Shown piece after piece: positions 6,632 through 52,165 of a stretch of 64,000 nucleotides of DNA. The position numbers and the translations under genes were made by a program. Location of the stretch: positions 3,715,001-3,779,000 of the forward strand of contig NZ_CP150918.1 in assembly GCF_039908635.1 (NCBI RefSeq), in the 5' to 3' direction. Each line of letters begins with the position of its first letter. Within the stretch, counting starts at the first letter, position 1. This DNA comes from Pseudomonas purpurea (GTDB lineage Bacteria > Pseudomonadota > Gammaproteobacteria > Pseudomonadales > Pseudomonadaceae). The notes beneath the pieces were generated by a model. The model saw nothing but the letters and a program-made list of their open reading frames with translations, did no database searches and had not been told where the DNA came from.

Positions 6632-6656
6632 ATCTGCTATTAACTAGCTACTTAAT

Positions 6657-6741: not shown

Positions 6742-6760
6742 GTATCAAGCTTTTAAAGCA

Positions 6761-6789: not shown

Positions 6790-6797
6790 TCTAAATA

Positions 6798-6873
6798 TGG
6801 GGTGGACGAAGGGGATCGAACCCTCGACAACGGGAGTCACAATCCCGTGCTCTACCAACTGAGCTACGCCCAC
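6798..6873 (-). tRNA. tRNA-His (anticodon GUG)
   Basis: A 76-nt cloverleaf with D-arm GCTCAGTTGGTAGAGC, anticodon loop TTGTGAC (anticodon GTG), T-loop GTTCGATCC and encoded CCA. Discriminator C73 and a G at -1 (position 6874) are the special tRNA-His identity features. Confidence 0.96.
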
Positions 6874-6913
6874 CATATTGCCATGTTGCGTTACTTGTGC
6901 CAAAGCTGCCTAA

Positions 6914-6990
6914 TGGCGCACCCGGCAGGACTCGAACCTGCGACCATCCGCTTAGAAGGCGGATGCTCTATCCAGCTGAGCTACGGGCGC
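6914..6990 (-). tRNA. tRNA-Arg (anticodon UCU)
   Basis: A 77-nt cloverleaf with acceptor GCGCCCG, D-arm GCTCAGCTGGATAGAGC, anticodon loop CTTCTAA (anticodon TCT), T-loop GTTCGAGTC and encoded CCA. It is the first tRNA of the three-gene minus-strand cluster. Confidence 0.96.
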
Positions 6991-7111
6991 CTTGTTAATC
7001 TGTATTCTTGGACGATTACAAACTAAGTGCTTTCAGTCTCACCGAATTAGACATCAACTCTGCTCGACCTTCTTAACCAGTGCTAGGCTGTGCCCGACAA
7101 GTGCGACGAAT

Positions 7112-7138
7112 GTTATAGGTGAGTCTGAAGGTCGTCAA
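7112..7138 (-). promoter_or_regulatory. Probable promoter of the tRNA Arg-His-Leu cluster
   Basis: On the minus strand TTGACG (7138-7133) is followed 15 bases later by TATAAC (7117-7112). A discriminator containing CGTCGC follows, as in stringently controlled stable-RNA promoters. The spacing is slightly short, so the assignment is moderate. Confidence 0.5.
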
Positions 7139-7270
7139 CTCTTTTTTGAAAAAAATTCATTTAATTAAAGGGGTTAGGGGATTTTGCAGACCAAGCGCCT
7201 TTGACCTCACGCCCTGACATGCGAGAATGCGTTCTCTTTTCTTCCCCCTCTCGATGGTTAATCACGCGCA

Positions 7271-8125
7271 ATGACTGCACAACTAATCGACGGCAAATCG
7301 ATCGCCGCCAGCCTGCGCCAGCAGATCGCCAAACGAGTCACCGAGCGCCGCCAGCAAGGCCTGCGCACGCCCGGCCTCGCAGTGATCCTGGTCGGCAGCG
7401 ATCCCGCCTCTCAGGTTTATGTCTCGCACAAGCGTAAAGACTGTGAAGAGGTCGGCTTTCTTTCCCAAGCCTATGACCTGCCCTCCAACACGACTCAACA
7501 AGCCCTGACCGACCTGATCGATCGTCTGAATGACGACCCGAACATCGACGGCGTGCTGCTTCAGCTTCCTTTACCTGAACACCTGGATGCATCGAAGCTG
7601 CTGGAGCGCATTCGCCCGGATAAAGACGTGGATGGTTTCCATCCTTATAACGTCGGTCGCCTGGCACAACGCATTCCTTTACTGCGCCCATGCACACCTA
7701 AAGGCATCATGACCTTGCTGGAAAGCACAGGTGCCGACCTTTACGGGATGGATGCAGTGGTAGTCGGCGCCTCGAACATCGTCGGTCGCCCAATGGCGAT
7801 GGAATTGTTGCTGGCCGGCTGCACCGTCACCGTCACCCACCGCTTCACCAAGGACCTCGCCGGCCACGTCGGCCGCGCCGACCTGGTGGTCGTGGCCGCC
7901 GGCAAGCCGGGCCTGGTCAAAGGTGAGTGGATCAAGGAAGGCGCCATCGTCATCGACGTCGGCATCAACCGCCAGGAAGATGGCAAGCTGGTCGGTGACG
8001 TGGTGTATGAAACCGCCCTGCCCCGCGCTGGCTGGATCACGCCGGTACCTGGCGGCGTTGGCCCGATGACTCGCGCCTGCCTGCTGGAAAACACGCTCTA
8101 CGCGGCCGAAACCCTGCACGACTGA
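7271..8125 (+). CDS. folD: Bifunctional methylenetetrahydrofolate dehydrogenase / methenyltetrahydrofolate cyclohydrolase
   Basis: FolD interconverts 5,10-methylene-, methenyl- and 10-formyl-tetrahydrofolate, supplying one-carbon units for purines and fMet-tRNA. The 284-aa protein has normal length. It shows the catalytic segment [16 protein letters not shown] with the active-site Lys, the substrate motif [25 protein letters not shown], and the Rossmann NADP site [14 protein letters not shown]. The C-terminal signature [18 protein letters not shown] is complete. A strong terminator follows 30 bases after the stop. Confidence 0.98.
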
Positions 8126-8152
8126 GTTCGAGCCTGCCGATGCGTGAACAAG

Positions 8153-8173
8153 AACCCCGCCAATGGCGGGGTT
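8153..8173 (+). terminator. Terminator of folD
   Basis: Arms AACCCCGCC (8153-8161) and GGCGGGGTT (8165-8173) with loop AAT, then TTTTATT: a textbook rho-independent terminator. The rest of the gap up to 8455 holds no gene I can support; it includes two GGTACC sites 11 bases apart and an AT-rich stretch where the pbpG promoter should lie. Confidence 0.9.
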
Positions 8174-8455
8174 TTTTATTCCGGCCGGAATCATTCTGCT
8201 CCAGATATCCAGCCCGCCATGAAATACCTCGAGATGCACAACAGCCTGCCAGGCACCATTTCCAGCCCTTCATATGCCAGCGCACATCACGTCATGAATT
8301 GGTACCAAATGGGTACCGGATTAAATTTTCTTCATCTAAAGCCCCGGCGCAGCGGGCGTATAGCGCTTTTCTGGCACATACTCATAAAATGTAACGCTTT
8401 AACTAGAAAAACCCGTTGCAAAACGGCATACCCATACTTTAGCGAGTCCGCCCGC

Positions 8456-9394
8456 GTGAAAATCCGCCTATCTATCCTGAGCCTTTTTTTTGCACTTACA
8501 GGCCCTCTTGTCACGCCAACCGCTGACGCACGTGAAACCACCGCTGCCCCCCGAGATTCCTCACAACTGCGTATCGCTTCCGGCAGCGCGATGCTCGTGG
8601 ATTTGCAAACCAACAAAGTCATCTATTCCAGCAACCCGGACGCTATTGTTCCGATTGCCTCCGTCACCAAACTGATGACCGGGCTGATCGTGGTTGAGGC
8701 CCGGCAGAACATGGACGAATATATCTCCGTCTCGATCAAAGACACCCCGGAAATGAAAGGCGTGTTCTCCCGCGTCAAACTCAATAGCGAGTTGCCGCGC
8801 AAGGAAATGCTGCTGATTGCCCTGATGTCCTCTGAAAACCGCGCCGCCGCGAGCCTGGCGCACCATTATCCGGGCGGGTATGCCGCGTTTATTGTCGCGA
8901 TGAACGCCAAGGCCAAGGCGCTGGGTATGACCAGCACCCATTACGTCGAACCGACCGGCCTGTCGATCCACAACGTTTCCACGGCTCGCGACCTCAGCAA
9001 ACTGCTGGTCGCAGCACGCAAGTACCCGATACTCAGCGAGTTGAGCACCACCAAGGAAAAGACCGTCGCGTTTCGCAAACCCAACTACACCCTGGGCTTT
9101 CACAACACCGACCATTTGGTGAACAAGGACAACTGGGACATCAAGCTGACCAAGACGGGCTTCACCAACCAGGCCGGCCATTGCCTGGTACTGGTCACGA
9201 GCATGGGCAACCGCCCGGTTTCGCTGGTGATTCTTGATGCCTTTGGCAAGTACACCCACTTCGCCGACGCCACCCGCATTCGCAAGTGGGTCGAAACGGG
9301 CAAAAGCAGCGACGTTCCGAGTGCCGCGCTGCGCTACAAGGCGGAGAAAAACCTGAAAGAGCGCCAGAGTGGCGTCGCAGCAACCGCCAAGTAG
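8456..9394 (+). CDS. pbpG: D-alanyl-D-alanine endopeptidase, penicillin-binding protein 7
   Basis: Low-molecular-mass PBP of the S11 peptidase family that cuts D-Ala-meso-DAP cross-links in peptidoglycan in the periplasm. I place the start at GTG 8456, giving [16 protein letters not shown] as a signal peptide with cleavage after TADA; the open frame extends upstream to 8144 but that part has no family resemblance. The 312-aa product has all three penicillin-binding motifs: SVTK (Ser about 69), SEN (about 126) and KTG ([10 protein letters not shown], about 234). Its original terminator has been split by the MITE described at 9427-9706. Confidence 0.93.
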
Positions 9395-36659: not shown

Positions 36660-37812
36660 ATGACCGCCATCACCCCTCCAGCGCCCGTCATCCCGGGTCG
36701 CCTGGAACAAATGTCGACCCGTATCGCCTTCTTCATCGCCGGTTTCGGCATCGCCGCCTGGGCACCGCTCGTGCCCTACGCCAAGGCCCGGGCCGGGCTC
36801 GATGAAGGCACCCTCGGTTTACTGTTGTTGTGCCTGGGGGTCGGCTCGATTCTGGCCATGCCCATGGCCGGAGTCCTCGCGTCGCGGTTTGGCTGCCGAC
36901 GGGTGCTCAGCGGCGGGACGATCCTGATCTGCCTGGCGCTGCCGTTGCTGGCCACGGTGTCGTCGATTCCGCTGCTGATCGCGGCATTGTTCCTGTTCGG
37001 CGCCGGGCTGGGCACGGTGGACTCGACTGTGAACCTGCAAGCGGTGATCGTCGAACGGGCCAGCGGCAAGAACATGATGTCGGGCTTTCACGGGTTGTTC
37101 AGCCTGGGCGGGATTGTCGGCGCAGCAGGCGTTAGCGCATTGCTGGGCCTGGGCGTGTCGCCGCTGGGTGCAACGCTGGTAGTGATCGTGTTTTTGCTGG
37201 TGTCGTTGTTCAAGGCTGCGCCACACCTGTTGCCGTACGGCAGTGAAAGCGCCGGCCCCGGCGTTCGCCGTCCCCCATGGCGTGGTGTTGCTGATTGGCA
37301 GCCTGTGTTTTGTGGTGTTCCTCGCCGAAGGCGCGGTGCTCGACTGGAGCGCGGTGTTCCTGGCCTCCGAACGCAACCTCGACACCGCGTACGCAGGCCT
37401 CGGTTATGCGGCGTTCGCGCTGACCATGACCGCCGGGCGCCTGACCGGCGATGCCATCGTCCGCCGCCTGGGCGCCACGCGAGTGATTGTGCTGGGCGGG
37501 CTGACCGCTGCGGCCGGCCTGATGCTGGCCACCCTCGCGCCAGCCTGGGAAATGGCACTGGTCGGTTATGCGCTGGTGGGCGCCGGCTGTTCGAACATCG
37601 TGCCGGTGCTCTACACCGCCGTCGGCAAGCAGACCGTCATGCCCGAGAACATCGCCGTGCCGGCCATCACCACCCTGGGTTACGCCGGCATTCTGGCGGG
37701 GCCCGCAGTGATTGGTTTTATCGCCCATGGCAGCAGCTTGAGTGTTGCCTTTGGCTTGATCGCCGTGTTGCTGCTGGCCGTTGCGGCCAGTGGCAAGGTA
37801 TTGAAGGTTTAA
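36660..37812 (+). CDS. MFS transporter, YbjJ-like (reading frame broken by 1 extra base)
   Basis: Starts MTAITPPAPVIPGRLEQMST. The first half (six membrane spans, FFIAGFGIAAWAPLVPYAKA, AGLGTVDSTVNLQAVIVE) is in one frame up to PYGSESAG; the second half (FAVPHGVVLLIGSLCFVVFL, then six spans) is in the next. The shift lies at GGCCCC, 37254-37259. Removing one C gives ESAGPAFAVPHG and a 383-aa protein with twelve spans. NMMSGFHGLFSLGGIVGA is typical of the YbjJ/fucose-permease-like group. Substrate unknown. The 244 bases after it hold nothing I can annotate. Confidence 0.85.
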
Positions 37813-38056
37813 AAGCATCGTCGGATCGCCGCCCAAACCAAGCCTCGCGGCTACAGATTCTGCATCACCCTGTAGAGACTCTGTTCACGGTCAAGCTAAC
37901 GCGCGGGCACGCCGTCGATAAACACCGTGGAGCGTGGCGACAGCCGCGACGTCGGCCTCAAACGCCGACGTTCAAGGAAATATCACTGCCACCAGTGCCG
38001 TTGGGCACCTGGAGCTGCCGCCCCGGCACAAGGCAATATTCCTTGCGTACTCGCTG

Positions 38057-39247
38057 TCAGGTGGTGCGAACGGCGACCACTCGAAACCCCATGAGAGAAA
38101 TCGTTATCTGGACGACCAGGACCAGACACAGCAATACCGCTGCCATTCCCCAGTCACCGCTGTCGGCGATAAACCCCAACGCTGCGATCATGATCGTGGC
38201 GCCCATGTTGCCGACCAACCAGAAAATCGAGGTCGCCGTCCCTGACCTGGACAGACCGGCAGTGTCGGATATCAGTTGCAACAGAAGAGGCAACGGCGAT
38301 AACAGTGCTGCGCCAATCACGACCCCCGCCAGACTCAATACCAACGGGGAGCCAGACGTAAAGAGCAGTACCGTGCCGATCCCCGCCAACAATGAAACCC
38401 CGGACAGGATGCCCCCCACCGTTGCCCCGCTGCGCACCAGAAAGGGCATGAACGTCATGCCTGCAATACCGCCGACCAACATCAGAATGACGATAAACCC
38501 TGAAACCTGTGTTTCGATCCCCTGACGTAACAGGATCGGTTCCAGCCATGTCGTAATGGCGGAGAAATACCCGTTGGTTAAAAAGATCATCAGCAAAACA
38601 GCCGTGAACGGCGCTGTGCGCAATAAATCGACACCCTGCGCGAGTAGACGGCCACCGGTTATTACAGGAACGGAAGTTGTTTGCCCAACGGGGCCATCTC
38701 GCGGGACATAAATGAAGGTCAATAGCGCAATCAGCCCCAGGATCGCGACGTCAATCAACAACGAACTGCTGATGTTCCCCTTCTCCGTCAACGGGACAAT
38801 AATGAACGCGGAACCTATACCCAGGAAAATCACCATACTGAACAGCGTCGTGACACGCGCATGCTCGTCTTCAGAGAACCAGGTGATCATCAACTTGACG
38901 AGCAGCGACATGGTCAATGGTTGAACAAAACCGAACAACAGTTGACCGGCAAGCAGGTATTCATAACGGGGTTGTAACACTCGAATCAATGCCGCCAGCA
39001 ACATGGCGACTGCCGTAATGCGCAAAGATGTTTGCACCGATATCCGGTCAATCAGGCCTCCGCTGGGAAGCGCCAGCGGTAATGCCAGCGCCGTCACGGC
39101 CAAAGACAACGAACCGACCTGCCCATAGCTAATGCCGTAATGGGTGGACACCTGGTCCGTGATGGGCGCAAAGCGCATCCACTCATATTGGGTCAACGCA
39201 AGCATGCCGGAGTAAATACAAAGAATACGGTAACGTACTGGGATCAC
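38057..39247 (-). CDS. MFS exporter, last gene of the 38-46.5 kb operon
   Basis: 396 aa from GTG 39247, which has GGGAG six bases upstream; a longer frame exists but lacks a ribosome site. About twelve spans: MIPVRYRILCIYSGMLALTQ, YGISYGQVGSLSLAVTALAL and PSGGLIDRISVQTSLRI. The loop motif and N-terminus resemble MFS members that move small metabolites (FLVCR/CynX-like). It follows the methyltransferase by 111 bases. Its place at the end of a biosynthetic operon suggests export of the product or self-protection. Confidence 0.8.
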   Translation of the reverse strand: MIPVRYRILCIYSGMLALTQYEWMRFAPITDQVSTHYGISYGQVGSLSLAVTALALPLALPSGGLIDRISVQTSLRITAVAMLLAALIRVLQPRYEYLLAGQLLFGFVQPLTMSLLVKLMITWFSEDEHARVTTLFSMVIFLGIGSAFIIVPLTEKGNISSSLLIDVAILGLIALLTFIYVPRDGPVGQTTSVPVITGGRLLAQGVDLLRTAPFTAVLLMIFLTNGYFSAITTWLEPILLRQGIETQVSGFIVILMLVGGIAGMTFMPFLVRSGATVGGILSGVSLLAGIGTVLLFTSGSPLVLSLAGVVIGAALLSPLPLLLQLISDTAGLSRSGTATSIFWLVGNMGATIMIAALGFIADSGDWGMAAVLLCLVLVVQITISLMGFRVVAVRTT

Positions 39248-39358
39248 GTTAATCTCCCGCGAAAAGACACGAGTGAAGTCCGGGAGCAAGTACCCCCGGA
39301 CCTTGAGTCCACACTGTGCGAAAACAACGCCCCGACAGGGCATTGTTCATCAACCCTG

Positions 39359-40384
39359 TTAATGCTTGATTCCGGTCGCCAGGCTCCAGTCACCGTATTG
39401 CGTTCGGGAAACCGTGATATCGCAGAAACCGGCCATCGTCAGCAGTTCCCTTACTTCGGTTTCTGACAATTGCTGGCCCTGGGTCCAAAGCAGCATGTTC
39501 GCGTTGTAGGCCGCGACATTATGGGGACCGGTCTTATCCGGATTAAAAAACATCTCATGAAGAATGATGCGTCCACCACTGGGCAGTGCGTCAAAACTCT
39601 TTTTGGCCAGGAACAGGCACTTGTCCACCGGCCAATCATGAAAGATATCACTGTAAAGATGCACATCGGCGGCTGGATAGTCAGACGACCAGATATCTCC
39701 TTTATGGGTTTTGATACGCCCCGACATCTGATATTGCTCGACGAAGGTATCGGCGATATCGCAAACATAGGGAAGATCAAATATCACGGCACTCAGGTCA
39801 GGCCACTTCTCCAGCGCGCAAATAGAATGAACACCCGAGCCACCGCCCACATCCAAAAGGCAGGTATACCCGGACAGATCAATCCGTCCTGACCAGGCCC
39901 GAGCCGGACCTTTGCTTTTACTGTGCATTGCTTTAGTGAAAATTTCGCTATGCAATTGATCCTGCGCATTGTTCTCAAACAGGTCCGTCTCACCGAACAA
40001 CCCGGACTGACCACTGAGCATCGACTCTTTGAAGAAGGCATAAGAGAACGCATCTTCCTTATGGCGAGCAGACTGCAAGACGCCACTGAACGAGGTCTCC
40101 GACTTTCGGGTCAGAAACTCTTGCGCCAAAGACGTCAGGCCATAGCAACTCCCACTCTTCTCCAGCAGCCCCTGGCTGGTGCACATCGCAACAAGCGCCT
40201 GTGCGGCCCGAGGCGCCAGTTCCAATGCCAAGCCGATTTCACCCAGCCTCAGCGCTTTTGCTTCAAGCAGATCAAACAGTTTTACTTCATCCGCAAAAAA
40301 CAATGTGTAGGTATTGATAAACCCAAAGTAGATATCAAAGATCTGCTTATCACTGTGGTGTTCTTTGTGCACGGTACTGTCCAT
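39359..40384 (-). CDS. SAM-dependent O-methyltransferase (methyltransferase_2 type)
   Basis: 341 aa. N-terminal winged-helix dimerisation domain (FADEVKLFDLLEAKALRLGE, LAPRAAQALVAMCTSQGLLE), then the SAM fold: glycine motif CLLDVGGGSGVHSICAL (about 175), VIFDLPYV, and the catalytic His in LYSDIFHDWPVDKC. Such enzymes methylate hydroxyls of small secondary metabolites. It is 18 bases downstream of the phosphatase gene and inside the operon. Confidence 0.9.
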   Translation of the reverse strand: MDSTVHKEHHSDKQIFDIYFGFINTYTLFFADEVKLFDLLEAKALRLGEIGLALELAPRAAQALVAMCTSQGLLEKSGSCYGLTSLAQEFLTRKSETSFSGVLQSARHKEDAFSYAFFKESMLSGQSGLFGETDLFENNAQDQLHSEIFTKAMHSKSKGPARAWSGRIDLSGYTCLLDVGGGSGVHSICALEKWPDLSAVIFDLPYVCDIADTFVEQYQMSGRIKTHKGDIWSSDYPAADVHLYSDIFHDWPVDKCLFLAKKSFDALPSGGRIILHEMFFNPDKTGPHNVAAYNANMLLWTQGQQLSETEVRELLTMAGFCDITVSRTQYGDWSLATGIKH

Positions 40385-40402
40385 GTAAATGCCTATTCCG
40401 TT

Positions 40403-41188
40403 TCAAAAGTGCCGTTGAAGACCATCAACAATGCCATGACAATAGAAACCCTGAACGACACGATCAAACGCTTGCCTGGCCTCCCGCGAAGCGTTGCCCA
40501 CCAGGTAACCGTGTGAACTGGCCTTCAACATCTCGATGTCATTACAACTGTCCCCGAAAGAAATGACCCTGGCGGGGGAAATTTCATGTTTCTTGACGAT
40601 GAAATCGACCCCCTGCTTCTTTCCGCAGCCTGGGTGCATGATTGCAACATCATAGACATTCTCAGGGTCGCCAGCGGCGGCGCTGGCATAGGTGATTGAT
40701 GCCTCGAGGCCAACGTGCAAACAGAGTTTATGGATGTGCTCGATGGCCGTTGCTTCATTGCCATCGGCCTTCAAGTAATACCCCCTGATGCGTTTCTGCT
40801 GGAAGGCCTCCGACTGCAGCGTCAACTCGATCCCCTCTCTCTCGAACAGGGCGTTCAGCCTTATGACCCTCTCAGGAAACGCTCCGCCTCCCTGCAACGG
40901 CCAACCTTCATCCTCCTGAACACTGTCCGGGTGGTTCCAGTACAACTCGGTCCCCAGGCTGGTCAATGCAAAGTCCCAGGGAAAGCCGGGGTATCTCTTC
41001 ATCTTGTCCAGCACCACCGTTTGGCTGTTTCCCGTGGCCCAGCCAAATAACAGGTGGTGCTTGCGCTTCAGTTGATTCAAACAGTCTTCAAGTTTTTCTA
41101 TCCCGGCATCCGCCTCTCGGGACGACAAGACCGGCATAAACGTCTCGTCAAAATCAGAAACTATCAACCATGTGTCTTTGCTCGCCAT
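40403..41188 (-). CDS. HAD-superfamily sugar-phosphate phosphatase (sucrose-phosphatase-like)
   Basis: 261 aa. Motif I DFDETFM (nucleophile Asp about 12, acid Asp 14), motif II in LFGWATGNSQ, and motif IV FGDSCNDIEMLKAS. The C2b cap lies between (YYLKADGNEATAIEHIHKL). This is the sucrose-6-phosphate-phosphatase-like class that includes NtdB, which releases kanosamine from kanosamine 6-phosphate; the resemblance points to a (amino)sugar phosphate. It should strip phosphate from a transketolase-derived intermediate. Six bases after the DUF1349 gene. Confidence 0.85.
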   Translation of the reverse strand: MASKDTWLIVSDFDETFMPVLSSREADAGIEKLEDCLNQLKRKHHLLFGWATGNSQTVVLDKMKRYPGFPWDFALTSLGTELYWNHPDSVQEDEGWPLQGGGAFPERVIRLNALFEREGIELTLQSEAFQQKRIRGYYLKADGNEATAIEHIHKLCLHVGLEASITYASAAAGDPENVYDVAIMHPGCGKKQGVDFIVKKHEISPARVISFGDSCNDIEMLKASSHGYLVGNASREARQAFDRVVQGFYCHGIVDGLQRHF

Positions 41189-41194
41189 ACCTGT

Positions 41195-41818
41195 TCACTC
41201 TCTGATGAGTCCCATGGACTGTGAGGATATTTCAATCCGGGAAAACTCCCCGACCGCCCCCTCGGAAAAGGGCGACTGCACACTGAACCCGACGCGAACT
41301 TCATCTGGACAGTTGCTCACATAGAACGCCCGATGAAAAACAACGACACCCTCAGTGCCTCTCAGGTAACACGAAAACACATCCCCACTTCGCGAAACGA
41401 AAAGCCTCACTGGCCCATCGTTGACCTCAATGCCATTGACTTCATCGCTATAGGGCGATGAATGCACCGATACGATTTTCTGACGGCCGCCATACTCCTC
41501 AACACCAAACTTCAGCTTATGCAGCCCGACTTCAATGAAGAGCCCTGCGGCATCAAACTTGGCCAGGCTGAACAACTTGATGTCAGCTCCCAGGGCAAAC
41601 TCTCCTGCCACGGACGTGAGTAAGGTGCCCAGGCTATCCACTGTGTGCAGCCCTGGAATGTTGAACGAGTCGCTACGGGGTTCGCTTTGCATTTTCAAAA
41701 CCGGTTCCACGTAACGGATCTGCGCGCAATGCTCGGCACCGAACACGCGATCACCGATCCTCAGTACGGTGTTCGGGCTTTCCTGCAAAAAAGGCGTGTG
41801 GCCGGCGGTGTCATCCAT
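41195..41818 (-). CDS. DUF1349 concanavalin-like protein
   Basis: 207 aa. The central part follows the DUF1349 pattern of a concanavalin-type beta sandwich: FALGADIKLFSLAKFDAAGL, FIEVGLHKLKFGVEE, VSVHSSPYSDEVNGIEV, PVRLFVSRSGDVFSCYL and VRVGFSVQSPFSEGAVGEFS. The family may bind carbohydrates, but its function is not established. No signal peptide. The ATG overlaps the SDR gene's end by 8 bases, so it is coupled to the pathway. Possible roles are sugar-intermediate isomerase, cyclase or binding protein. Confidence 0.75.
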   Translation of the reverse strand: MDDTAGHTPFLQESPNTVLRIGDRVFGAEHCAQIRYVEPVLKMQSEPRSDSFNIPGLHTVDSLGTLLTSVAGEFALGADIKLFSLAKFDAAGLFIEVGLHKLKFGVEEYGGRQKIVSVHSSPYSDEVNGIEVNDGPVRLFVSRSGDVFSCYLRGTEGVVVFHRAFYVSNCPDEVRVGFSVQSPFSEGAVGEFSRIEISSQSMGLIRE

Positions 41819-42656
41819 AGAGGTTCATTCCGCCATCGACCGACAGGGATTGCGCCGTGATGTCTTCGTTCTCAAGGACCGCCAGACAGAACCGGGCAAT
41901 GTTTTCTGCGGTCTGCGTACGGCCCAACGGGATCAGACCTTCCATACGAGCCCACAAGTCATCCATCGATTCGTTGGGCTCGATGAGGCGGTTCTCCAGG
42001 TACTTCCACATATTGGTTTTTACAATGCCGGGGCAAACGCAGTTGACCCGAATATTGTGAGTGGCCAACTCCAGTGCCAGGGCGCCAGAAAAACCCTGCA
42101 ACCCCGCTTTCGCGGCGCAGTAAGACGATATTCCAGGAAACGCGATTTTTGCGGCAATGGAACTGATGTTCAGGATCGCACCGCCCTTGCCTCTTTGTAT
42201 CAATGCGCGGGCAACTTCACGCGACGTCAGGTAAGGCGCTGTCAGGTTGGTTTGCACGATGGCGTCAAACTCGCCCAGCGATGATTCAACCGTGTTGATC
42301 AGATGGCTGCTGCCAATGGCATTGACCAGCCCGTAAAAGTGTTCCGACTCATGGACAACGCCACCTACGGCCTCTATGACCTGGGCTTCAGACGTTGCGT
42401 CGACCGCTATGGCCTTGACCGAAAGCCCTTGTGCCACAAGATCCGCCGCTAGTTGACGCGCCGCCTGATAACCACTGACATCCTGACTCTGATAGTGGTT
42501 GATTGCATTGGGTGTCCGGTCAGTATCAAAGATGTAGACATGAACATTTTCTTTGGCCAGTACTTCAACAATCGCGGCACCGATACCTCGAGCGCCACCC
42601 ACCACGATCATTGTTTTACCGGACAATTTGCCTTGCGCTCTAGTTCCCTGCGTCAT
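41811..42656 (-). CDS. Short-chain dehydrogenase/reductase
   Basis: 281 aa, classical SDR: cofactor site MIVVGGARGIGAAIVEVLAK, NAG-type motif VNAIGSS, catalytic Ser in LNISSIAAKIAFPG, Tyr and Lys in SSYCAAKAGLQ, and the C-terminal QSLSVDGGMNLYG. Asp after the second strand (IFDTD) favours NAD over NADP. Likely oxidises or reduces a carbonyl on the pathway intermediate. Lies 81 bases after the transketolase gene. Confidence 0.9.
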   Translation of the reverse strand: MTQGTRAQGKLSGKTMIVVGGARGIGAAIVEVLAKENVHVYIFDTDRTPNAINHYQSQDVSGYQAARQLAADLVAQGLSVKAIAVDATSEAQVIEAVGGVVHESEHFYGLVNAIGSSHLINTVESSLGEFDAIVQTNLTAPYLTSREVARALIQRGKGGAILNISSIAAKIAFPGISSYCAAKAGLQGFSGALALELATHNIRVNCVCPGIVKTNMWKYLENRLIEPNESMDDLWARMEGLIPLGRTQTAENIARFCLAVLENEDITAQSLSVDGGMNLYG

Positions 42657-42737
42657 AAACCACTACTCCTGAACCCATAGAAAGCCTGCCGAACCCTGTA
42701 CAGGGTCCAGAACACCAATAAATAGTTGAGACTGCGT

Positions 42738-44540
42738 TTAAACGTGTGAAGTCTGATTAACCAATGCACACGGCGGGTCAGCCAACAATGCGCCAAGTTT
42801 GCGAGGTGCGACGTCGGCCTGGAAAGTCTCGATGGTCGGCCATTCATAGGCATCACTGAAGACTTTACGCACTCGAACCAGCAAACTGGACTCAATGTAT
42901 TCAGCCAAGTTAAAGCGACCGCCGTTATGTTCTACGACAATAATCTCGTCACAGTTGCTCAGCATCTCTTTAGCCAGCTCCAGATCCGGCCGAACGGACA
43001 GGAACCGGATATGCGTGCATCTTTTCGATGTGGCTACCTGAAAGGCTTCATACGCCATCGACTCCGATGACACTATCAATGAACCTGCGGCAAACTCAGG
43101 CTGAAAGATATAAATATCTTTAGACAGTTTCTGGTACTTCTCCCTCAGGGCAAACACTCTTTCCATGGACTGGTCGTACATTAGATACAGACCATTCCCG
43201 CCCTGCGCTTTCTGCCGACTGATACAGGCCAACAGATCGAGAGGGTCTGTAAGCTCGTACACGGTCTCTTCCGTCAGCAAGCTGAACACGGTTGACACAT
43301 ACGTAGCGCCGCCCCACACACCATTTTTCCGAGCGGCAATGACGTGCAAGTTACGACAGGCAATCAAAGCAGAGTGCAGTACATCGATCGCATTGAGGTA
43401 ATACTTGTCATCGGTCAGGACGAACTTCAGTTCGTCATCCGGACAACCCATCGCGGCGGTCAGCAACGCTGACTCGGCCAGGCCGGTGTTGCAATAACCG
43501 GGTAATGACTTCAGGCCAAACCGGGCGGCCAGGTCCGCGGTGAAGACATGAACCGGTACCCCGGACCGAACTTCTTCGATGATCTCGGCCGTCCGACTGC
43601 AACTGGTGGCTTTCCTGAGATCGCTCTTTTGCTGATCGTCGGTTGACGTCATCAGACTCAAATGGCTGGCACGCTTGAAGGAATGAACGCCTTTTTCGGT
43701 ATGGCAGACGATCGCGGTAGACCGATGCTCCTTCTCTGCCTGGCGAATACGCTCACTGATTGCCTGGGTGTCGTGCCCATCCACTTCATAAACATCAGAA
43801 AAGTAGGCAGACAAATACTCCGGCTTCAACCTCCCGGGGAGGGGGTCTATACCTCTGCCATTGTTGTCCACTATCAACGTCAGGTTGTTGACCTGCAGTT
43901 CGCCCACCAGGCGTATCGCCTCGAAAGACACCCCTTCGTTCAACTCACCATCACCCGCCACACAGATGACGCGTGCATCCCGGTTGGCATTCGCCCGACC
44001 CAACGCAATGCCAACCCCCTCACCCAGGCTATGCCGCATGCTATAGGCAAAACCGTAGTGTTTATTGACAACGGCCGGCACCTTATCGTGAACCGCGGCC
44101 AGAAAGGCCAAAGGCATACCGTTAAGCACATGACGATAAGCATAAAACAACGGCGCAATATGCCCCCTGCCAATCACCAGGTTCTGATTGGCCACACCGG
44201 CTTCATTGCAGTGCTCCAATGCGAACAATGCTTCAGCAATGTTCAGTGACGACAAGCAAGATGCCAGGGTTCCGTAACCGGCAATTTCATGAATCCGATC
44301 CAGGCACACGCTTACGTCTGAATAGAAGGGCGTAAATTGCCTGGCAATGGCTACCGCCAGTTCGTTGATCGTCTGGTACTTCGACGATTCGGCGATACCG
44401 ACTTCAACTTCCTCACAGGCACGCACATATTCATCGGCCGTCAGGTACGCCTTGCGTTTATGTAAACATTGGCGAATGTCGTACAACGGTTCCAACAGGC
44501 TGGCAACTGGCTCGAGGTCATAACTGATTAATTGATTCAT
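42738..44540 (-). CDS. Single-chain transketolase-like enzyme
   Basis: 600 aa joining what are often two subunits. The N-terminal TPP domain has IGRGHIAPLFYAYRHVLNG (cofactor His), SLGEGVGIALG and the thiamine diphosphate motif GDGELNEG with a downstream NN (TLIVDNNGRG). The Pyr and C-terminal domains follow (SGVPVHVFTADLAARFG, IDVLHSALIACRNLHVIAA, RFLSVRPDLELAKEML). It is shorter and divergent from housekeeping TktA, suggesting a special ketol transfer or DXS-like reaction in this pathway. Its start overlaps the aminotransferase gene by 23 bases. Confidence 0.88.
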   Translation of the reverse strand: MNQLISYDLEPVASLLEPLYDIRQCLHKRKAYLTADEYVRACEEVEVGIAESSKYQTINELAVAIARQFTPFYSDVSVCLDRIHEIAGYGTLASCLSSLNIAEALFALEHCNEAGVANQNLVIGRGHIAPLFYAYRHVLNGMPLAFLAAVHDKVPAVVNKHYGFAYSMRHSLGEGVGIALGRANANRDARVICVAGDGELNEGVSFEAIRLVGELQVNNLTLIVDNNGRGIDPLPGRLKPEYLSAYFSDVYEVDGHDTQAISERIRQAEKEHRSTAIVCHTEKGVHSFKRASHLSLMTSTDDQQKSDLRKATSCSRTAEIIEEVRSGVPVHVFTADLAARFGLKSLPGYCNTGLAESALLTAAMGCPDDELKFVLTDDKYYLNAIDVLHSALIACRNLHVIAARKNGVWGGATYVSTVFSLLTEETVYELTDPLDLLACISRQKAQGGNGLYLMYDQSMERVFALREKYQKLSKDIYIFQPEFAAGSLIVSSESMAYEAFQVATSKRCTHIRFLSVRPDLELAKEMLSNCDEIIVVEHNGGRFNLAEYIESSLLVRVRKVFSDAYEWPTIETFQADVAPRKLGALLADPPCALVNQTSHV

Positions 44541-45756
44541 TTAACACCTCGAACACGTCACTTAGGGTTTCTTCTGACATGATGTATGCGGGTGCAAGGC
44601 AAGCCCAATCTTCCTCACCTCGAATAATCAACTTCCTTTCAAAGCAGCGCTCTCCCAACTTCTTGCCTGCCGTTTCCCCAAGACTTGAATCCAGGGTTAT
44701 GCCGATCAGTAAACCGTGGGATTCAATCCGGGCGATACGCTCGTTCCCGGCAATTTCTTCACACAACGCCTGGGTCTTTGTGATGAGTTTTTGCACCTGC
44801 CCTGCGGCCTCTATCTGCTCCAGCACGCGCATCGATGCATTGATTGCCGCAATCGAAACCGGGTTACTTGCATAGGTATGCGAGTATGAAAACGGGATCC
44901 AGGGCTCTGGTTTGTCAAACACCGAGGCAATCTTATGGGAGGTCACCATGGCGGATGCCGGGTAATAACCACCGCTGATGCCTTTACCGAGCGCTACGAT
45001 GTCGGCCGAAACCCCAAACTGATGGGTGTTCAAAAACTCGCCGGTGCGAGAAGCACCCGTGACGATTTCATCGGTAATCATCACGATATCGTAACGGTCG
45101 CACAGCTCACGAATACCAACCAGGTAATCGCGGGGCGTTTGCCGCATGCCTTTCAAATGGTTGACGGGTTCGAAAATAATGCAAGCAATCTGCTCTGCGC
45201 CATAGTGAAGAATAATGTTCTCCACATCCGACACGCTGTGCATTTCCAATGCCTGACCTTCGTGAACGACAGGGAATGGCGGATTGATCCGAATGGTGTC
45301 GTAACCACTGCAACGCAGATCCTTGAAGTCGTTCCTGCCGGTAATACTGTGGGCCCCCAAAGTGGCGCCATGATAGGAGTGTTTGCGGCAGATCACTTTC
45401 TTCTTGAATGTATTGCCTTTGCGCTGGTGATACTCCAGGGCCATGGCAATTGACGACTCGATGGCTTCCGAGCCGCTGTTGACATACAACAGGCCCCCAT
45501 CTTCCATCTTGGCGCGCTTGAGCAACAGTTCCGAAGTTTCAAACAGCTCCGACGAGTAGAAGTGATCCTTGGGGTGGAAGGGCAGATCCGCCAACGTCTT
45601 GGAAATATGCTGTTTGATGGGATCGCACGAATACCCGAACGGTACGTTGAACATGCCCGAAATCGCATCCGTGTAGATGCCACCCTGCGCATGAACACTG
45701 ACATCTTTGACAGAGCCGACAATCTGATCTTTCACGCGTGACTGATAGAGAAACAT
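44518..45756 (-). CDS. Class III PLP-dependent aminotransferase
   Basis: 412 aa. Class III landmarks: YVNSGSEAIESSIAMAL, KVICRKHSYHGATLGAHSIT, ACIIFEPVNHLKGM, the DE pair in VMITDEIVTGASRTGEF (about 229) and the PLP Lys in IVALGKGISGGYYPASAM (about 258). The family mostly transfers amino groups to terminal aldehydes or to sugar ketones. It follows the acetyltransferase by 20 bases and overlaps the transketolase start, so the two are probably consecutive steps. Confidence 0.9.
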   Translation of the reverse strand: MFLYQSRVKDQIVGSVKDVSVHAQGGIYTDAISGMFNVPFGYSCDPIKQHISKTLADLPFHPKDHFYSSELFETSELLLKRAKMEDGGLLYVNSGSEAIESSIAMALEYHQRKGNTFKKKVICRKHSYHGATLGAHSITGRNDFKDLRCSGYDTIRINPPFPVVHEGQALEMHSVSDVENIILHYGAEQIACIIFEPVNHLKGMRQTPRDYLVGIRELCDRYDIVMITDEIVTGASRTGEFLNTHQFGVSADIVALGKGISGGYYPASAMVTSHKIASVFDKPEPWIPFSYSHTYASNPVSIAAINASMRVLEQIEAAGQVQKLITKTQALCEEIAGNERIARIESHGLLIGITLDSSLGETAGKKLGERCFERKLIIRGEEDWACLAPAYIMSEETLSDVFEVLNESINQL

Positions 45757-45776
45757 GCCTTTTAGCCTTCTATTAA

Positions 45777-46295
45777 TTAGATCGGATAAACCTGAGCGCC
45801 GGCGCCCAGTACTTTACTGTGTGGCGGCACCGACTTTGCGACGACAGCACCCGCACCAATGATTGAGCCCCTGCCCACGGTAACGCCCGGCAAGATTGTT
45901 GCGCCGCCACCAATCCAGACATCATCTTCAATGACCACTGGCGCACCTGACTCGATATAACGGCGCCGCTGTTCAAGGTCCTTGGCATGGTTAGAGGTGT
46001 AAATACCGACATGGGGCCCGATAAAAACACGGTTCCCGATATTGATTTCAAACGCATCCAGGAAAACCCCATTGGCATTAATGAAGACACCCTCACCAAT
46101 GTTTATGTTCGAACCAAACTCGCAAAACAAACTGCCCCACTGCTCAAATCCCTCCCCCACCGACCCGAACAGGAGTTTATAAAGCGGCTCCCGATCATCA
46201 GGGCTGCTGCTGATGGAGGAACACAAGGCACGCGCTATACGTCTACGGGCAACCAAGGCAGGTTCTGCCGCGTTGAATGTAATGAACTCACGCAT
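45777..46295 (-). CDS. Hexapeptide-repeat acetyltransferase (maltose/NodL type)
   Basis: 172 aa. A short N-terminal helical cap, then left-handed beta-helix repeats: NINIGEGVFINANGVFLDA, IGNRVFIGPHVGIYTSNHA (catalytic His), VVIEDDVWIGGGATILPGV and RGSIIGAGAVVAKSVPP. This is the MAT/NodL/GAT group that O- or N-acetylates sugars with acetyl-CoA. The 50-aa protein gene ends 8 bases upstream; its stop lies in a run of G that is this gene's ribosome site, implying coupled translation. Confidence 0.9.
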   Translation of the reverse strand: MREFITFNAAEPALVARRRIARALCSSISSSPDDREPLYKLLFGSVGEGFEQWGSLFCEFGSNINIGEGVFINANGVFLDAFEINIGNRVFIGPHVGIYTSNHAKDLEQRRRYIESGAPVVIEDDVWIGGGATILPGVTVGRGSIIGAGAVVAKSVPPHSKVLGAGAQVYPI

Positions 46296-46303
46296 ACGCC
46301 CCC

Positions 46304-46456
46304 CTATACGCCACTGTTGTTATAGAGCACGTTAACGCCATGCTGCTCAGCGAAGAAGCACAGGCAGACTAAACAGCCATTACCACTTCCGCGCTTGTAA
46401 CCACCCTCAATAGTTGAAGCCCACACTTCCCCCACAGCCTGATTCCTTTCAGTCAT
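46304..46456 (-). CDS. Small 50-aa protein heading the biosynthetic operon
   Basis: Read directly from the reverse strand: ATG at 46456-46454, TAG at 46306-46304, 50 residues starting MTERNQAVGEVWASTIEGGY and ending VLYNNSGV. A GGGGGTGG ribosome site precedes the ATG by 2-3 bases. It carries a Cys cluster (NGCLVCLCFF) and a Gly/Ser-rich middle (KRGSGNG). I recognise no family. It could be a carrier or scaffold peptide, a precursor peptide, a leader peptide controlling translation of the operon, or a remnant of a larger gene. Tight coupling to the acetyltransferase argues that it is translated. Confidence 0.55.
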   Translation of the reverse strand: MTERNQAVGEVWASTIEGGYKRGSGNGCLVCLCFFAEQHGVNVLYNNSGV

Positions 46457-46682
46457 AACCACCCCCACCCACTATTTAATTTTTAAATCAACTTCAACAC
46501 TCACTACTTGAGCCAGCAAGAATCTAGTCTGCTCTTTAAAAAACACAAGCAACACAAATGACCGTTCGTCGGATTCGATAAACCATCAACATACAACATC
46601 AACACCCGTCAAAAAATAGCGGATCAGATACACTATTTAGAGATCAGACGACCTGCTTTTTACGGACAGCGACACCCCCGCT

Positions 46683-46699
46683 ACTATGTACAACATAGT
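46683..46699. promoter_or_regulatory. 7-bp palindrome near the predicted transcript start
   Basis: ACTATGT and ACATAGT around ACA. It lies just downstream of the predicted start, where it could be an operator or a 5' hairpin. Confidence 0.3.
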
Positions 46700-46744
46700 T
46701 AAAACACACACTTAGCAACCCGTACTTACAGCGCATACAGAATA

Positions 46745-46766
46745 CAACTACCAAATCTGGTAGTTG
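46745..46766 (-). promoter_or_regulatory. lux-box-like palindrome (LuxR/AHL quorum-sensing site)
   Basis: Perfect 9-bp arms CAACTACCA and TGGTAGTTG around AATC. The core ACTACCA-N4-TGGTAGT closely resembles the lux boxes bound by PhzR-, MupR- and PpuR-type regulators of Pseudomonas. It overlaps a possible -35 region for the operon on the minus strand. No luxR or luxI gene is in the window, so the regulator would be encoded elsewhere. Confidence 0.65.
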
Positions 46767-46964
46767 CAAAATCCACCACGCATAAAAGAAAGAAAGAACG
46801 CAGGCGCAATAGTAACTAATCATTACCCACCACGAACAACTCACCGCCAATACACTTAAACTTCAACCCAGACACGCCCGATATTAAATGACAGAATCTT
46901 TACACTTTTTATTCTTCAAACTCCCTGACCTGTAGACTCTCGCCATCAAGTCCGGGAATCTCTG

Positions 46965-47333
46965 GTGACGAAGCGACGCGAACTCACCGAGGCCTCCCGG
47001 GACAGGCGTGCTGAACGCCCCTCCATCACCCACATTGACGCCATCATGACCATGGAAAAACTGGAACACGATTACCCGGGCGATGCCGAGTGGCAGTCGC
47101 TGGTCGCACTGTATGAGCAGGACTATCTAGACGAACACGCGAGAGCGTTGGCCAGGTTGCTGGGCAATCATCTGGACATGGCCGTGATCATTTATGGAAA
47201 ACGCGGGCGAGAGGAAGGGCTGTGGTGGATCGAACAGTCGGTGCCGGCTCTGGATGACTTGAGGCCTGTTGACTGCCTCGTGAAGCCGCATCTGATCAGG
47301 CGCCTGAGGAGTGCGCTGATGCGCATGCCCTGA
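46965..47333 (+). CDS. Small protein with possible ParS/MbcA-type (DUF2384-like) domain
   Basis: 122 aa from GTG 46965 (MTKRRELTEASRDRRAERPS); internal Mets around residue 28-30 are possible starts (MTMEKLEHDYPGDAEW). The C-terminal part, LWWIEQSVPALDDLRPVDCLVKPHLIRRLR, follows the pattern of the toxin-binding domain of Xre/MbcA/ParS antitoxins. There is no neighbouring RES-type toxin and the N-terminal helix-turn-helix is not clear. The call is tentative. Confidence 0.5.
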   Translation: MTKRRELTEASRDRRAERPSITHIDAIMTMEKLEHDYPGDAEWQSLVALYEQDYLDEHARALARLLGNHLDMAVIIYGKRGREEGLWWIEQSVPALDDLRPVDCLVKPHLIRRLRSALMRMP

Positions 47334-47370
47334 GGTTGACCCTCGGTCGGGTAACGGAAAACAGCCTGAC

Positions 47371-47396
47371 GCCCCCGTGACACCTGTCACGGGGGC
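47371..47396. terminator. Bidirectional terminator after tpsA and the ParS-like gene
   Basis: Perfect 11-bp arms GCCCCCGTGAC and GTCACGGGGGC with loop ACCT, between two converging stops. Confidence 0.8.
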
Positions 47397-47406
47397 GCCA
47401 CGGTGC

Positions 47407-50400
47407 TTAGTTCGACTTCTCGTCAATCCCTGCCTGCAATACCTGGGTGTCGTAGTGACCACCCACGCTCAGCGGGCCGAGGTTGAACTTGCGGTCCTTG
47501 GCCGTGGCGGCGTCCGGGGTTTTGGTCAGCCCGTCCTTGGCGCCGGTCACGAGGTTGACCGGTGATTTCGACAGGTGCAGGCCGACATCGGCACGGTAAT
47601 CGCTGCCGCTCAGGGCGGTGCTGTTGACGTTGGAACCGCCGAGGTTGACCGAACCCTCGCTGGAACCGATCCGCGCGCCGGTCAGCTGTGTCCAGCCGCT
47701 CACCTGAAGGTTAACGCCTTGACTGGCGCTGATCCCGGAGGCTTGGCCGACACTGTTCTTGCTGGTGTGGCTGACGTCCAGGTCCAGCGTCGGGGTGTAC
47801 GAGGTCTCGCCGCTCTTGTCGCCGAACAACGCGTTTTGCGTGGCGTCAGCGACCTTGGTGCCCACAGTTTTCTTCTCGCTGGCGGCCTCGTCCTTGGTCG
47901 AGGTCAGGCCGTCCACGCCCTTGTCGACTGCGCTTTCCAACGCACCGCGACCTTTATCGAACGCGTCCTGGGCCTTGGCTTCGACGGTGTCCTTGAGCGG
48001 GCCGGTTTGCTTGGCCAGTTTGGCGACAGCGCCGGGCTGGTTCTTTTCTGCGTTCAAGCGCAGATCGAGGCCCACCTTGACGCTGCTGTCCTTGTCCTGA
48101 CGGCTTTCGACGTTCAGATCGCCACCGACCTGACCGCTGACCTGTTTGGCATCGATGCGCGCACCGGCCAGACGGGTATCTTCGGCGCTGTTCAAGACCA
48201 CACCATCCGCCTGGATACGGCTGTTTTTCTGGGTGGTGGCCTGACGATTGTCGACGTCGATCTTGGCCCGCGCATCGAAGCCATGGCCGTTCTTGGCGCT
48301 GTCTTCGACGTTGCTCGCCGACGGCGTGGAAACGCTGGCGTTCCCCCCGGCGCCCAACGTCAGGCCCCAGTTGTTCACGGCCTGAGTCGACTGCGCGGAC
48401 TCTTGATAAATCCCGCCCTGACGCGCGTCGAGGGTCACGTTCGAGGCGCTCAGCTGAGTGCCTTGCAGGTGCAACGCGTCGGCACCGGTCGCGCCGCTGT
48501 TGAGCTGGACCTTGCCCTGGCTGTGCACATTGCCGCCGCTCAGGTTCTGGTTGTCTTCAGCGACCCGACCGATGTTGAAGTTGGCGCTCAGGCTGCCATT
48601 CTTGCCGGTGCCTTTCTCGGTGCTGCTTTGACCGCCACCGATGTTCAGGCCACCGCCCAGGTTGCTGCCATTGGCCAGATGAGTGCTGCTCGATGCTTGC
48701 AGATCCAGCTTGCCGCCCGCGTTCAGCGACACGTCACCGACCTTGTTCACCACCGTGCCAATCGTGGTGCCTTGCAGCACCTGATCGCCACCGCTGCTGA
48801 GCTGGATCGGCCCCGCGCCCTGAATACCCGCCACGCGGGCCTGGCTGTCCTGAGTCTGGCTGGCCTTGTGGTCAAGCTGGAAACCGGCGCCCAGGTTGAC
48901 GTTGGTGCCGCTGGTGCCGGGGTTGGTGCCGACGGTCAGCGAAGCGTTGCCGCCCAGGCTGGATTGGCTGCTGTCCTGACGGTTGTTGGCTTGATTGAGC
49001 GCCAGGTCACCACCGGTCTTGACCGACACGCCGCCCTGGCCGCCGTTGAACTGGCTGCCCTCGAACTGGCCATCGCCGCGCAGGTTGATGTGCACACCCT
49101 GGCTGGCGACATAGTTGCCGACCACGGCTTTACTGCTCGATTCGCTGGCCTTGCTGCTGCCACCCGCCCCGCTGCCGCGCACGTTCACGTCTTCACCTGT
49201 GGTGGTGTAGACCCGCACGCCGACCTTGGCGTTTGCCGCCTGCTCCGAACTGCTGTGGGTGTCGGCGGCGGCCGTGGCAACCTGGCTGCCCGCCTTGATG
49301 TTCAGCCCGCCATCGGTTGCACGGTATTGGGTGCCCTGGTCCTGCAACTGCCCGACGACCTGCACGTCAACCTGGCCACCGTTGAACTGGCTGACCACAG
49401 CGTTGCTGTTCTGCTCGCTGCGACCCTTGCTTTGGTGCCCGACTTCGAGATCGATACCGACGTTGGCCTGCTCAAGGTTATCCAGCAGCCCTGGCTGTTG
49501 AACCTTGCCCTGCGCTGCGCCTTCGATGGCTTTGGCGACCGGACGGGCAATGCCTTTGTACTCGACGTTGGCGCCGACATCGACCGACCAGCTGCTGTCC
49601 TTGTGGGACGTGCTGTCGGTGTTGTTCGCCGCCAGGTTGTCGACCTTCCCCGCCGTGACGTGCAAACCGGAACCGGCGTTGACCTGCGCGCCCTGAGTGG
49701 TCAGCGTGCCTTTGCCGGCGTTGATCGTCAGTGCACCGCTGCTGTCCACATCCGTGGTACGGGCGGTGGTTTTAGCGCTGCTGTCCTGGCTGCTGGTGTG
49801 GGTGAATTCCACGCCGCTGCCGGCACGATCAAGCCCGCCAGTGAGGTAGAAACCGCCGCCATTGCTGGTGGTGTCCTTGTTGCTCGACTGGCTGTCCTGT
49901 TCGGCCAACAGCGCAACGTTCTGCCCACTCAGACTAGCATCGCCAGCCGTGGCGCTGACCTTGGCGCCCTTGACGGTCAGGTCGCCGCCGGCCGCCAGTG
50001 CCACGTTGGCGCCGCTGAGGCTTGAGCCCTGCTGACGGGTTTCCTGAGTGGTGGCGTTTTCCTGCTTGCCTTCATAGTGAATGCCGGCACGGTACTGGCT
50101 GGCACCCGCCGCGGTTTCCTTGGCGTAGGCATCAAAGCCGCGAGTCTGGGTCGAGGTGCTGTTGTCGACCGTGTTCTGTCCCGAGCTGACCGTGAGGTTA
50201 CCGGTAGCATCGGCGGTGAGGTTGCCGCCCGCCGTGACTTTCGCGCCCACGACGTCAATGTCCTTGGCGCTCTTGAGCTGCAGGTTGCTGTCCGAACTCA
50301 ACTCGCTGCTGACAGTGCTGCTGCCCTTGAGGTTCTGGCGGCTTTCATCCTTGGCGATGCCAAAGAATTTGCTGTCCTTGTCATGGCTGTTGGTGTGGGA

Positions 50401-52165
50401 GCGATCCTGCACGCCATCGACGGTCAACGAACCTTGCTCGCTGATCACACTGGCCTCGGTGCGCCCGCGCACCTGGCTGCCGCTGATGCGCACGTCATCG
50501 GCCCTTGACGATCAGTTTGCCGTCGGCGTTGATCTTGCTGCCCTGGTTGACGGTCTTGCCTTGATCGCCTTCGCCGGTTTTGCCGAAGAAGCCGCCGCCC
50601 ACCAGATCACCGGAGTAACCGCTGGTGGTCTTGCTTTGGGTGCGGCTGGCGCTGGTGACTTCTACCTGTTTGCCGGCGAGCCGGATATCGCCCTTGCTGG
50701 TCAGTTCCGCGCCTTGCGCCTGCAAGGTGGCCGCGCTGTTCAGGTCGATATTTTTCCCGGCTTTCAACTGGCTGGTGACGCTGCGCTGCTCTTCGCTGCT
50801 GTTGTCCCAATCGGCTTTCCACAAGTGCTTGCGGTGCTTGCCCTGGTCGCGCTGGGTACGGGTTTCGGTGGCCGCGCTCAGGCGCAGGTCGTCACCGCTG
50901 TTGACGCGCAAGGTGTCACCGGCCTCAACCTTGGCAGCCTTGAGTTCGGTCTTGGCACCCGACGACAGCTCGGCGTTCTGGCTGGCCACAATCTGGCTGC
51001 CGTGCTGGCGCGAGTTGCTGTCGGTCTGGGTCCGCTCGTAGGTTTCCCAGGTGATGCCGATGGTCTTGTTGTCCCAGCTCTCACGTTTTTCCTGAAGCTT
51101 GCGGCTTTCGACGCTGCTCAAGGTGAGGTTGCGGCTGGCGTCGAGCTTGACGTTGCGGCCCGTGACATCGGCTGCCGCCAGAGTCAGGTCGTTGCCGCTG
51201 TGCAAACCGACATCGCCCTGGCTGCTGCGAACGCCACTGCGCACGGCGTCGAGGCTCTTGGCGACGGCTTCGCCACTGACGTGCAAGTCGCCGGCAGAAC
51301 GAATCTGCACGCCATCACGGCCTTCGACCTGCACCGGCCCGACACGGACACCCGCACCTTCGGCGGTGCTGACGATATTGATACGGCCAGCCTGCATGGC
51401 GCCGAACAGGCTGGCGTCGATGCGTTGATCGTGGGTGTTGCCGAGCACATCGACCGAGCGTACCTGGCCGGTGGCGTAGTCGACCTGGTTACGGCCGACC
51501 GTCAGGTTCAACTGGTCGCTGGCGCTGATGCTGCCCTGGCTGTCGATGCGCGGCGCAATCAGGTTGATGCTGCCTTCGCGGTTTTGCAGGCCCTGGCCTT
51601 GCACCTGCAAACTGCCGTCGGCGCTGCGGGTGTTGAAGGCGTTCAGTTTGCCGTCGTTCAGCTCCGGGCGACCGACCACCAGATTGGCGTTAGGCGTGTT
51701 GATGAAGCTGCCGCCGTTCACCGAAATACCGTTGGGGTTGGCCAGCACGTAATCGGCCTGGCGACCGAAAATTTCCTGGGCACCATTGAGCGCCGAGGCA
51801 TTGCGGCTGATCACTTCGTTGAGGATCACGCTCGCAGCCTGACCCTGGAACTGCGGGTTGGCGGCCAATTGACCCGCCAGTTGCGATTGCCCGGCCTGCA
51901 AGGCGTTGTTCAACACCAGACCCTGACGGTCGACGTTGTAGTCCAGAAACTGGTTGTGGGACAAACCGGCGCCATTGGGCGCAACGATATTGACGACTGG
52001 CACACCGGCCTGGTTCTGCAGTTGAGGCGTACCGCCGGGGCCCGGTGCAACGGTGACGCCAGCGCCGAACGCCAGCGGTAATTGGCTGACCAGAAACAGG
52101 CTGGCGATTGCCCAACGCAGTTTGCCCCGAGGGGAAAGGTGGAACGCAAATGTGTTTCTAGGCAT
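47407..52165 (-). CDS. Two-partner secretion hemagglutinin-type exoprotein TpsA (reading frame broken by 1 extra base)
   Basis: About 1585 aa once repaired. An extended signal peptide (FAFHLSPRGKLRWAIASLFL) leads to the TPS secretion domain with motif ANPNGISVNGGSF (about 143) and NLVVGRPEL. A long beta-helix of hemagglutinin repeats follows (GNLTVSSGQNTV, GGDLTVKGAKVSA, GQNVALLAEQDS). The break is at plus-strand GGCCC, 50500-50504: removing one base joins KLIVK to ADDVRISGSQVRGRT. The protein is exported by the upstream TpsB and likely acts as an adhesin. There is no VENN-type junction or recognisable toxin at the C-terminus (QVLQAGIDEKSN), so it does not look like a CdiA toxin. Confidence 0.88.

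Follow-up and report, generated by a model that had tools for sequence, protein, structure and literature searches.

What product does a compact gene cluster of Pseudomonas purpurea make, and is its pathway new? The cluster lies on the minus strand, at 38057-46295, of the 64,000-nucleotide stretch analysed here (contig NZ_CP150918.1 of assembly GCF_039908635.1, positions 3,715,001 to 3,779,000; hereafter the window). The original prediction, made from the sequence without database searches, called it an undescribed biosynthetic operon lacking non-ribosomal peptide synthetase (NRPS) and polyketide synthase (PKS) genes. We do find a single biosynthetic operon free of NRPS and PKS genes, but its genes match the anisomycin clusters of Streptomyces hygrospinosus and Chromobacterium violaceum. 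The prediction itself had named a homologous cluster of assigned product as the finding to count against it; since one exists, with anisomycin as its product, the word 'undescribed' falls: this is a known pathway in a new host. From sequence comparison, the operon is very probably of the anisomycin type (ani), ordered aniI-Q-P-N-M-H-K-L in a Pseudomonas-like host and following the pathway proposed below, and its predicted product is anisomycin-type.

The tight operon consists of eight intact open reading frames (ORFs), and the six enzymes among their products retain their motifs. Transcription begins with an aniI-like hexapeptide O-acetyltransferase of the maltose-acetyltransferase type (45777-46295, 172 amino acids), with NCBIfam scores under the curated cut-offs and an NHAKD motif that presumably plays its part in such acetyltransferases. 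Next come an aniQ-like class III aminotransferase dependent on pyridoxal phosphate (44518-45756, 412 amino acids; PF00202, E=3.6e-64), whose ALGKG motif at 255 we take to hold the cofactor-binding lysine, and an aniP-like enzyme (42738-44540, 600 amino acids) that depends on thiamine diphosphate, resembles transketolase and 1-deoxy-D-xylulose-5-phosphate synthase and carries a GDG...N motif (hereafter TK). The aniN-like SDR dehydrogenase (41811-42656, 281 amino acids; PF00106, E=2e-44) has GGARGIG and YCAAK motifs. It is followed by a DUF1349 protein (41195-41818, 207 amino acids; PF07081, E=1.2e-17), aniM-like by position, for which PDB sequences gave no useful match, with two at E ~0.5. The HAD-IIB phosphatase, aniH-like by position (40403-41188, 261 amino acids; PF05116, E=3.3e-22), has DFDET and GDSCND motifs and is of the NtdB/sucrose-phosphatase type; its nearest solved structure is NtdB (3gyg, E=7e-38). 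An aniK-like O-methyltransferase dependent on S-adenosylmethionine (39359-40384, 341 amino acids; PF00891, E=5.5e-35, plus a dimerisation domain) and an MFS exporter, aniL-like by position (38057-39343, 428 amino acids; PF07690, E=4.8e-23), complete the set.

These domain calls agree with the enzyme types predicted for all eight genes, and by domain type they support the chemistry proposed with them: carbon-carbon joining, amination, redox change, dephosphorylation, acetylation, O-methylation and export. Along transcription the spacings are 20, -23, 81, -8, 6, 18 and 15 bases, so that the overlaps of 8 and 23 bases and the gaps of 6-20 bases 'in most places' are as described; the one wider gap, 81 bases, separates the TK and SDR genes. 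Nine genes had been counted on this strand, of which the eight uninterrupted ORFs stand. The ninth, a 50-codon ORF in the leader (46307-46456), was excluded, being unsupported by homology where the published cluster has eight loci. A homologue search with it gave no candidate sharing three 5-residue words, and it had no match at E<=1 in the seven Streptomyces loci described below; a role as peptide precursor was dropped when homologues were not found.

The assignment starts from TK, which belongs to a small family of its own; the solved member of this family, PDB 8k03 ('transketolase ANIP from Streptomyces hygrospinosus'), is AniP of the anisomycin cluster of S. hygrospinosus var. beijingensis. 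TK groups with AniP by both sequence and fold. The thiamine diphosphate enzyme fold and the GDG...N motif are common to TK, 1-deoxy-D-xylulose-5-phosphate synthase and transketolase, but the AniP family stands apart by a gap in E-value: among the scored candidates it jumps from 4e-63 at the 33rd match to 4e-10 at the 34th, whose domains are those of an ordinary transketolase. We read the gene letters I, Q, N and K as acetyltransferase, aminotransferase, dehydrogenase and methyltransferase; the primary paper, by Zheng et al. in PNAS in 2017, reportedly gives these enzyme meanings and the substrates. With the letters so read, the AniP-type transketolase-like enzyme expected of an ani cluster is present, genes of the AniQ and AniN types adjoin it, and genes of the AniI and AniK types are in the same operon.

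The nearest published counterpart is in C. violaceum ATCC 12472, for which PMC8062528 reports anisomycin, deacetylanisomycin and anisomycin propionate, a cluster of eight loci (CV_2255-CV_2262) with AniQ as CV_2256, and a main set of proteins comprising AniQ, P, N, I and K. The operon is printed in two ways in PMC11019928, as aniIQPNMHKL in the discussion and as aniIQPMNHKL in the results. It differs from the present operon in host genus and resembles it in having eight genes and in lacking glycosylation genes; the gene order may agree too, through one of the two spellings. If I, Q, N and K mean what we assume and M, H and L are fitted by position, the domain order here would be that of aniIQPNMHKL, and AniQ as the second C. 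violaceum locus agrees with it.

For a comparison with Streptomyces we sampled 392 genomes of that genus, chosen because the one useful TK locus from a wider scan, L003, came from it; seven had TK, the L003 genome included. The seven loci (L003 and L090-L095) were selected solely by TK, and several are incomplete, stopping where the contig or the fetched stretch stops. Homologues of the aminotransferase (33-38% identical), TK and SDR (38-44%) were found by tblastn in all seven, and since the loci had been picked by TK alone, the presence of the other two beside it indicates a gene grouping beyond chance. The acetyltransferase has homologues in three of the seven (35-39% identical) and the O-methyltransferase in four. 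DUF1349 homologues were found in four by tblastn, blastp added L095, and the Streptomyces copy as query matched in all seven. Gene order differs from that here. Streptomyces queries located a glycosyltransferase of the GT4 type and an APH-like gene in all seven loci and a HAD_2-type phosphatase in four; L092 also carries its own MFS gene. Nothing in the window matched the Streptomyces ATP-grasp and HAD_2 queries. Four of the seven AniP loci, L094, L090, L091 and L092, share an Exo_endo_phos-like gene (in L094 at 1597-2421, with PF03372). The operon here thus differs from the Streptomyces version in that the glycosyltransferase/APH pair is missing from the window and its phosphatase is of another HAD subfamily. 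According to PMC8062528, glycosylation proteins were likewise not identified in C. violaceum, a producer, so the pair is not needed for membership of the ani group.

Closer relatives appeared in protein clusters. The nearest to TK is a cluster named 'Pseudomonas prote...' at 91% identity, with 124 member sequences, and Chromobacterium proteins are 66-70% identical. The HAD phosphatase, with 34 homologues at E<=1e-20 among 413 candidates, has a 95% cluster of 57 member sequences and is 68-70% identical to four proteins named Chromobacterium. In five cases the HAD and TK homologues share the same longest contig size. Where this is 19598, 8344 or 24396 bases, the two must lie close together; where it is 5138981 or 4885049 bases, they share a chromosome, with no closer linkage shown. 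TK searches in genus, class and relatives samples, which have some genomes in common, found 1 of 298, 1 of 369 and 1 of 57, in each case the source genome itself; these samples missed the P. protegens and Chromobacterium genomes whose existence the protein-cluster search reveals. Among the matches listed in a scan of genome contigs for TK, 80 loci, were ordinary transketolases, with L003 as the one useful locus.

Several observations weigh against the assignment to anisomycin. Identity to the Streptomyces proteins is low (24-27% for the O-methyltransferase, 33-36% for TK), the HAD and MFS queries had no match at E<=1 in the seven Streptomyces loci, and the Streptomyces glycosyltransferase and APH queries had none in the window at E<=1e-3. 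The comparison with C. violaceum covers two of the eight proteins, HAD (68%, full species name) and TK (66%, under the cut-off name 'Chromobacterium v...'), and the alternative printed spelling of that operon has N and M swapped. The same low identities to Streptomyces would suit an operon of this family whose product is a new benzylpyrrolidine congener, differing in the aryl acid, in the acyl group or in where the pathway stops, and the acetyl, propionyl and deacetyl forms reported for C. violaceum in PMC8062528 are in keeping with such variety. We nevertheless consider a new congener unlikely, as TK and HAD are 66-70% identical to proteins of Chromobacterium, the genus with the reported producer, and every step that we assume anisomycin to require is encoded.

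In the anisomycin pathway that we propose, the second building block, beside the aromatic one, is a three-carbon unit. AniP would join an acyl carbanion derived from 4-hydroxyphenylpyruvate to glyceraldehyde or its 3-phosphate. The resulting ketone would be aminated by AniQ and its phosphate presumably taken off by the NtdB-like AniH; the SDR AniN could then oxidise the terminal alcohol and reduce the cyclic imine, giving the benzylpyrrolidine. O-methylation of the phenol by AniK, acetylation of a ring hydroxyl by AniI and export by AniL would complete the route, in which the DUF1349 protein AniM is allotted no step. That the Streptomyces and Gram-negative versions have different phosphatases would fit a phosphorylated intermediate, as expected with glyceraldehyde 3-phosphate as acceptor. 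With this three-carbon unit and with L-tyrosine as the anisomycin precursor (PMC8062528), the purely sugar-derived skeleton first proposed has to be given up.

How did the operon come to be here? Its GC content is 53.0%, that of its AT-rich 5' leader (46296-46940, minus strand) 43.7%, and that of the flanks 63.2% and 63.5%. The MFS gene on the left flank is common in the genus sample, the flank query matching 264 of 398 genomes at E<=1e-100 as against the 1 of 298 for TK; the right haemagglutinin flank query matched 57 of 398, the best relatives at about 71%. Five relatives were compared at the locus, four out of a larger number with both flanks close together on one contig and the fifth (G1111) being the best left-flank match, and in the stretches fetched from all five (L122-L126) nothing matches any part of 38057-46295. 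L123 has TonB receptor, FecR and ECF sigma genes at this place, L126 by eye has similar ORFs after the MFS gene, and L122 has a 1300-amino-acid ORF of another kind.

At the left junction, between the flanking MFS gene and the operon, similarity to the relatives marks out a remnant of about 103 bp of a TonB-receptor-type gene (37902-38004). Matches within 37895-38029 occur in four of the five, at 84-87% to L125 and L126 and, slightly longer, at 80-82% to L124 and L123; none was found in L122. The counterpart lies inside a large ORF in L126 and in L123, where it is the 810-amino-acid TonB receptor gene. The haemagglutinin-like gene on the right matches four of the five relatives, L126 being the exception. 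Both the AT-rich leader and the suggestion of acquisition by transfer are thus borne out by the GC contrast and the comparison with relatives: the operon was probably acquired by gene transfer, to judge from these sequences, and the locus seems variable among relatives. Elsewhere in the window, positions 1-9000 have a GC content of 53-57%, as against 58-65% over 13 to 38 kb, and may be another acquired segment.

The leader also holds a possible control site. At 46745-46766 lies a lux-box-like palindrome, CAACTACCA-GATT-TGGTAGTTG, with 9-base arms that are 100% complementary and a core, CTACCAGATTTGGTAG (46748-46763), that fits the consensus form of the lux box, CT-N12-AG. The palindrome occurs at one place in the window and at two exact places in the genome. 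The genome has one LuxI-family match and two matches to the autoinducer-binding domain. At L107 4510-7303 (own genome C1, ~2.6765-2.6793 Mb), glycosyltransferase-like, luxR and luxI genes stand in a row on one strand, an apparent operon, and 98 bases before this run is a copy of the palindrome with one mismatch. At three further places in the genome a single mismatch is seen on one strand or both. Apart from the site in the leader, the core has one exact copy, at L108 4049-4064, 236 bases ahead of a beta-glucosidase-like gene (1611-3812, minus strand), whose co-regulation with the ani operon is possible. In C. violaceum, CviI/CviR activates the ani operon, according to PMC11019928. A LuxR-type quorum-sensing regulator may well control the operon here too, through this putative site, which would parallel C. 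violaceum.

Set against such control are four findings. Sites at <=2 mismatches are fewer in the genome (8+8) than for a reversed control (15+14); the palindrome is 452 bases from the aniI start; it also reads as a terminator-like hairpin; and a scan of 37780-47450 gave no sigma-70-like promoter on the minus strand. The number of terminator-like sites did not exceed that in shuffles. A second perfect inverted repeat, ACTATGT/ACATAGT with a 3-base spacer, lies at 46683-46699, between the lux-like box and aniI, and is possibly a second operator.

The missing promoter match would also suit a silent or decayed relic that makes nothing, as would the foreign composition and the state of the neighbouring haemagglutinin/TPS-domain gene (PF05860, PF13332), which looks broken, being split into two ORFs in different frames (47407-50493 and 50495-52165, minus strand). 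Such a relic is improbable, since all eight ORFs are open, the six enzymes keep their motifs and close relatives have been retained elsewhere, as the 124 and 57 members of the TK and HAD clusters attest. A pathway to an amino sugar or azabicycle that has yet to be described is hardly credible and largely contradicted: the domains of TK, of the aminotransferase and of a sugar phosphatase, the last resembling NtdB (a kanosamine-pathway enzyme), speak for it, but both sequence and fold put TK with AniP, the whole operon is like the one reported for anisomycin, and beyond that phosphatase we found no tie to the amino-sugar or azabicycle likeness first suggested. An azabicycle or azinomycin-type route, which the transketolase and aminotransferase had suggested, was dropped on the AniP match, and a kanosamine/NTD-type pathway because the genes other than HAD do not fit.

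Among the papers listed in searches on anisomycin with Pseudomonas or P. protegens, none announces an ani operon in Pseudomonas in its title or at the start of its abstract, and an earlier description in subscription papers is possible. The material covered includes the anisomycin passages of PMC8314000, PMC8062528, PMC7277857, PMC11679325, PMC9723690, PMC10847347 and PMC11848910. Among these, PMC9723690 gives a mass-spectrometric annotation of anisomycin in static communities that held many Pseudomonas metabolites, the producer being unnamed, and in PMC7277857 three Antarctic strains have anisomycin among their library matches. The pathway itself is already known; what this analysis adds are the glycosyltransferase/APH and phosphatase differences from Streptomyces, the lux-box-like palindrome and the comparison of the insertion locus. 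The case also shows how a known cluster, if it lacks NRPS and PKS, can seem undescribed.

Taken together, the ani operon suggests a wider reading, to which we give an even chance. A Pseudomonas group, comprising this strain and the relatives named P. protegens, would produce anisomycin along a Gram-negative route that does without the glycosylation found in Streptomyces, the glycosyltransferase and APH both absent and an NtdB-like phosphatase taking the place of the HAD enzyme from another subfamily; the operon would have entered a variable locus and come under the resident LuxR/LuxI system, as it has under CviI/CviR in Chromobacterium. Setting the Gram-negative version beside that of Streptomyces directly tests the reason for which an intermediate is glycosylated in the latter. 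Protein synthesis in eukaryotes is blocked by anisomycin, and if the reading is true the compound is an unrecognised weapon of these Pseudomonas against fungi and protists. Should P. protegens-type Pseudomonas make it, their antifungal or antiprotist activity may have been credited in part to other metabolites, and biocontrol strains with the operon would need to be reinterpreted in that light.

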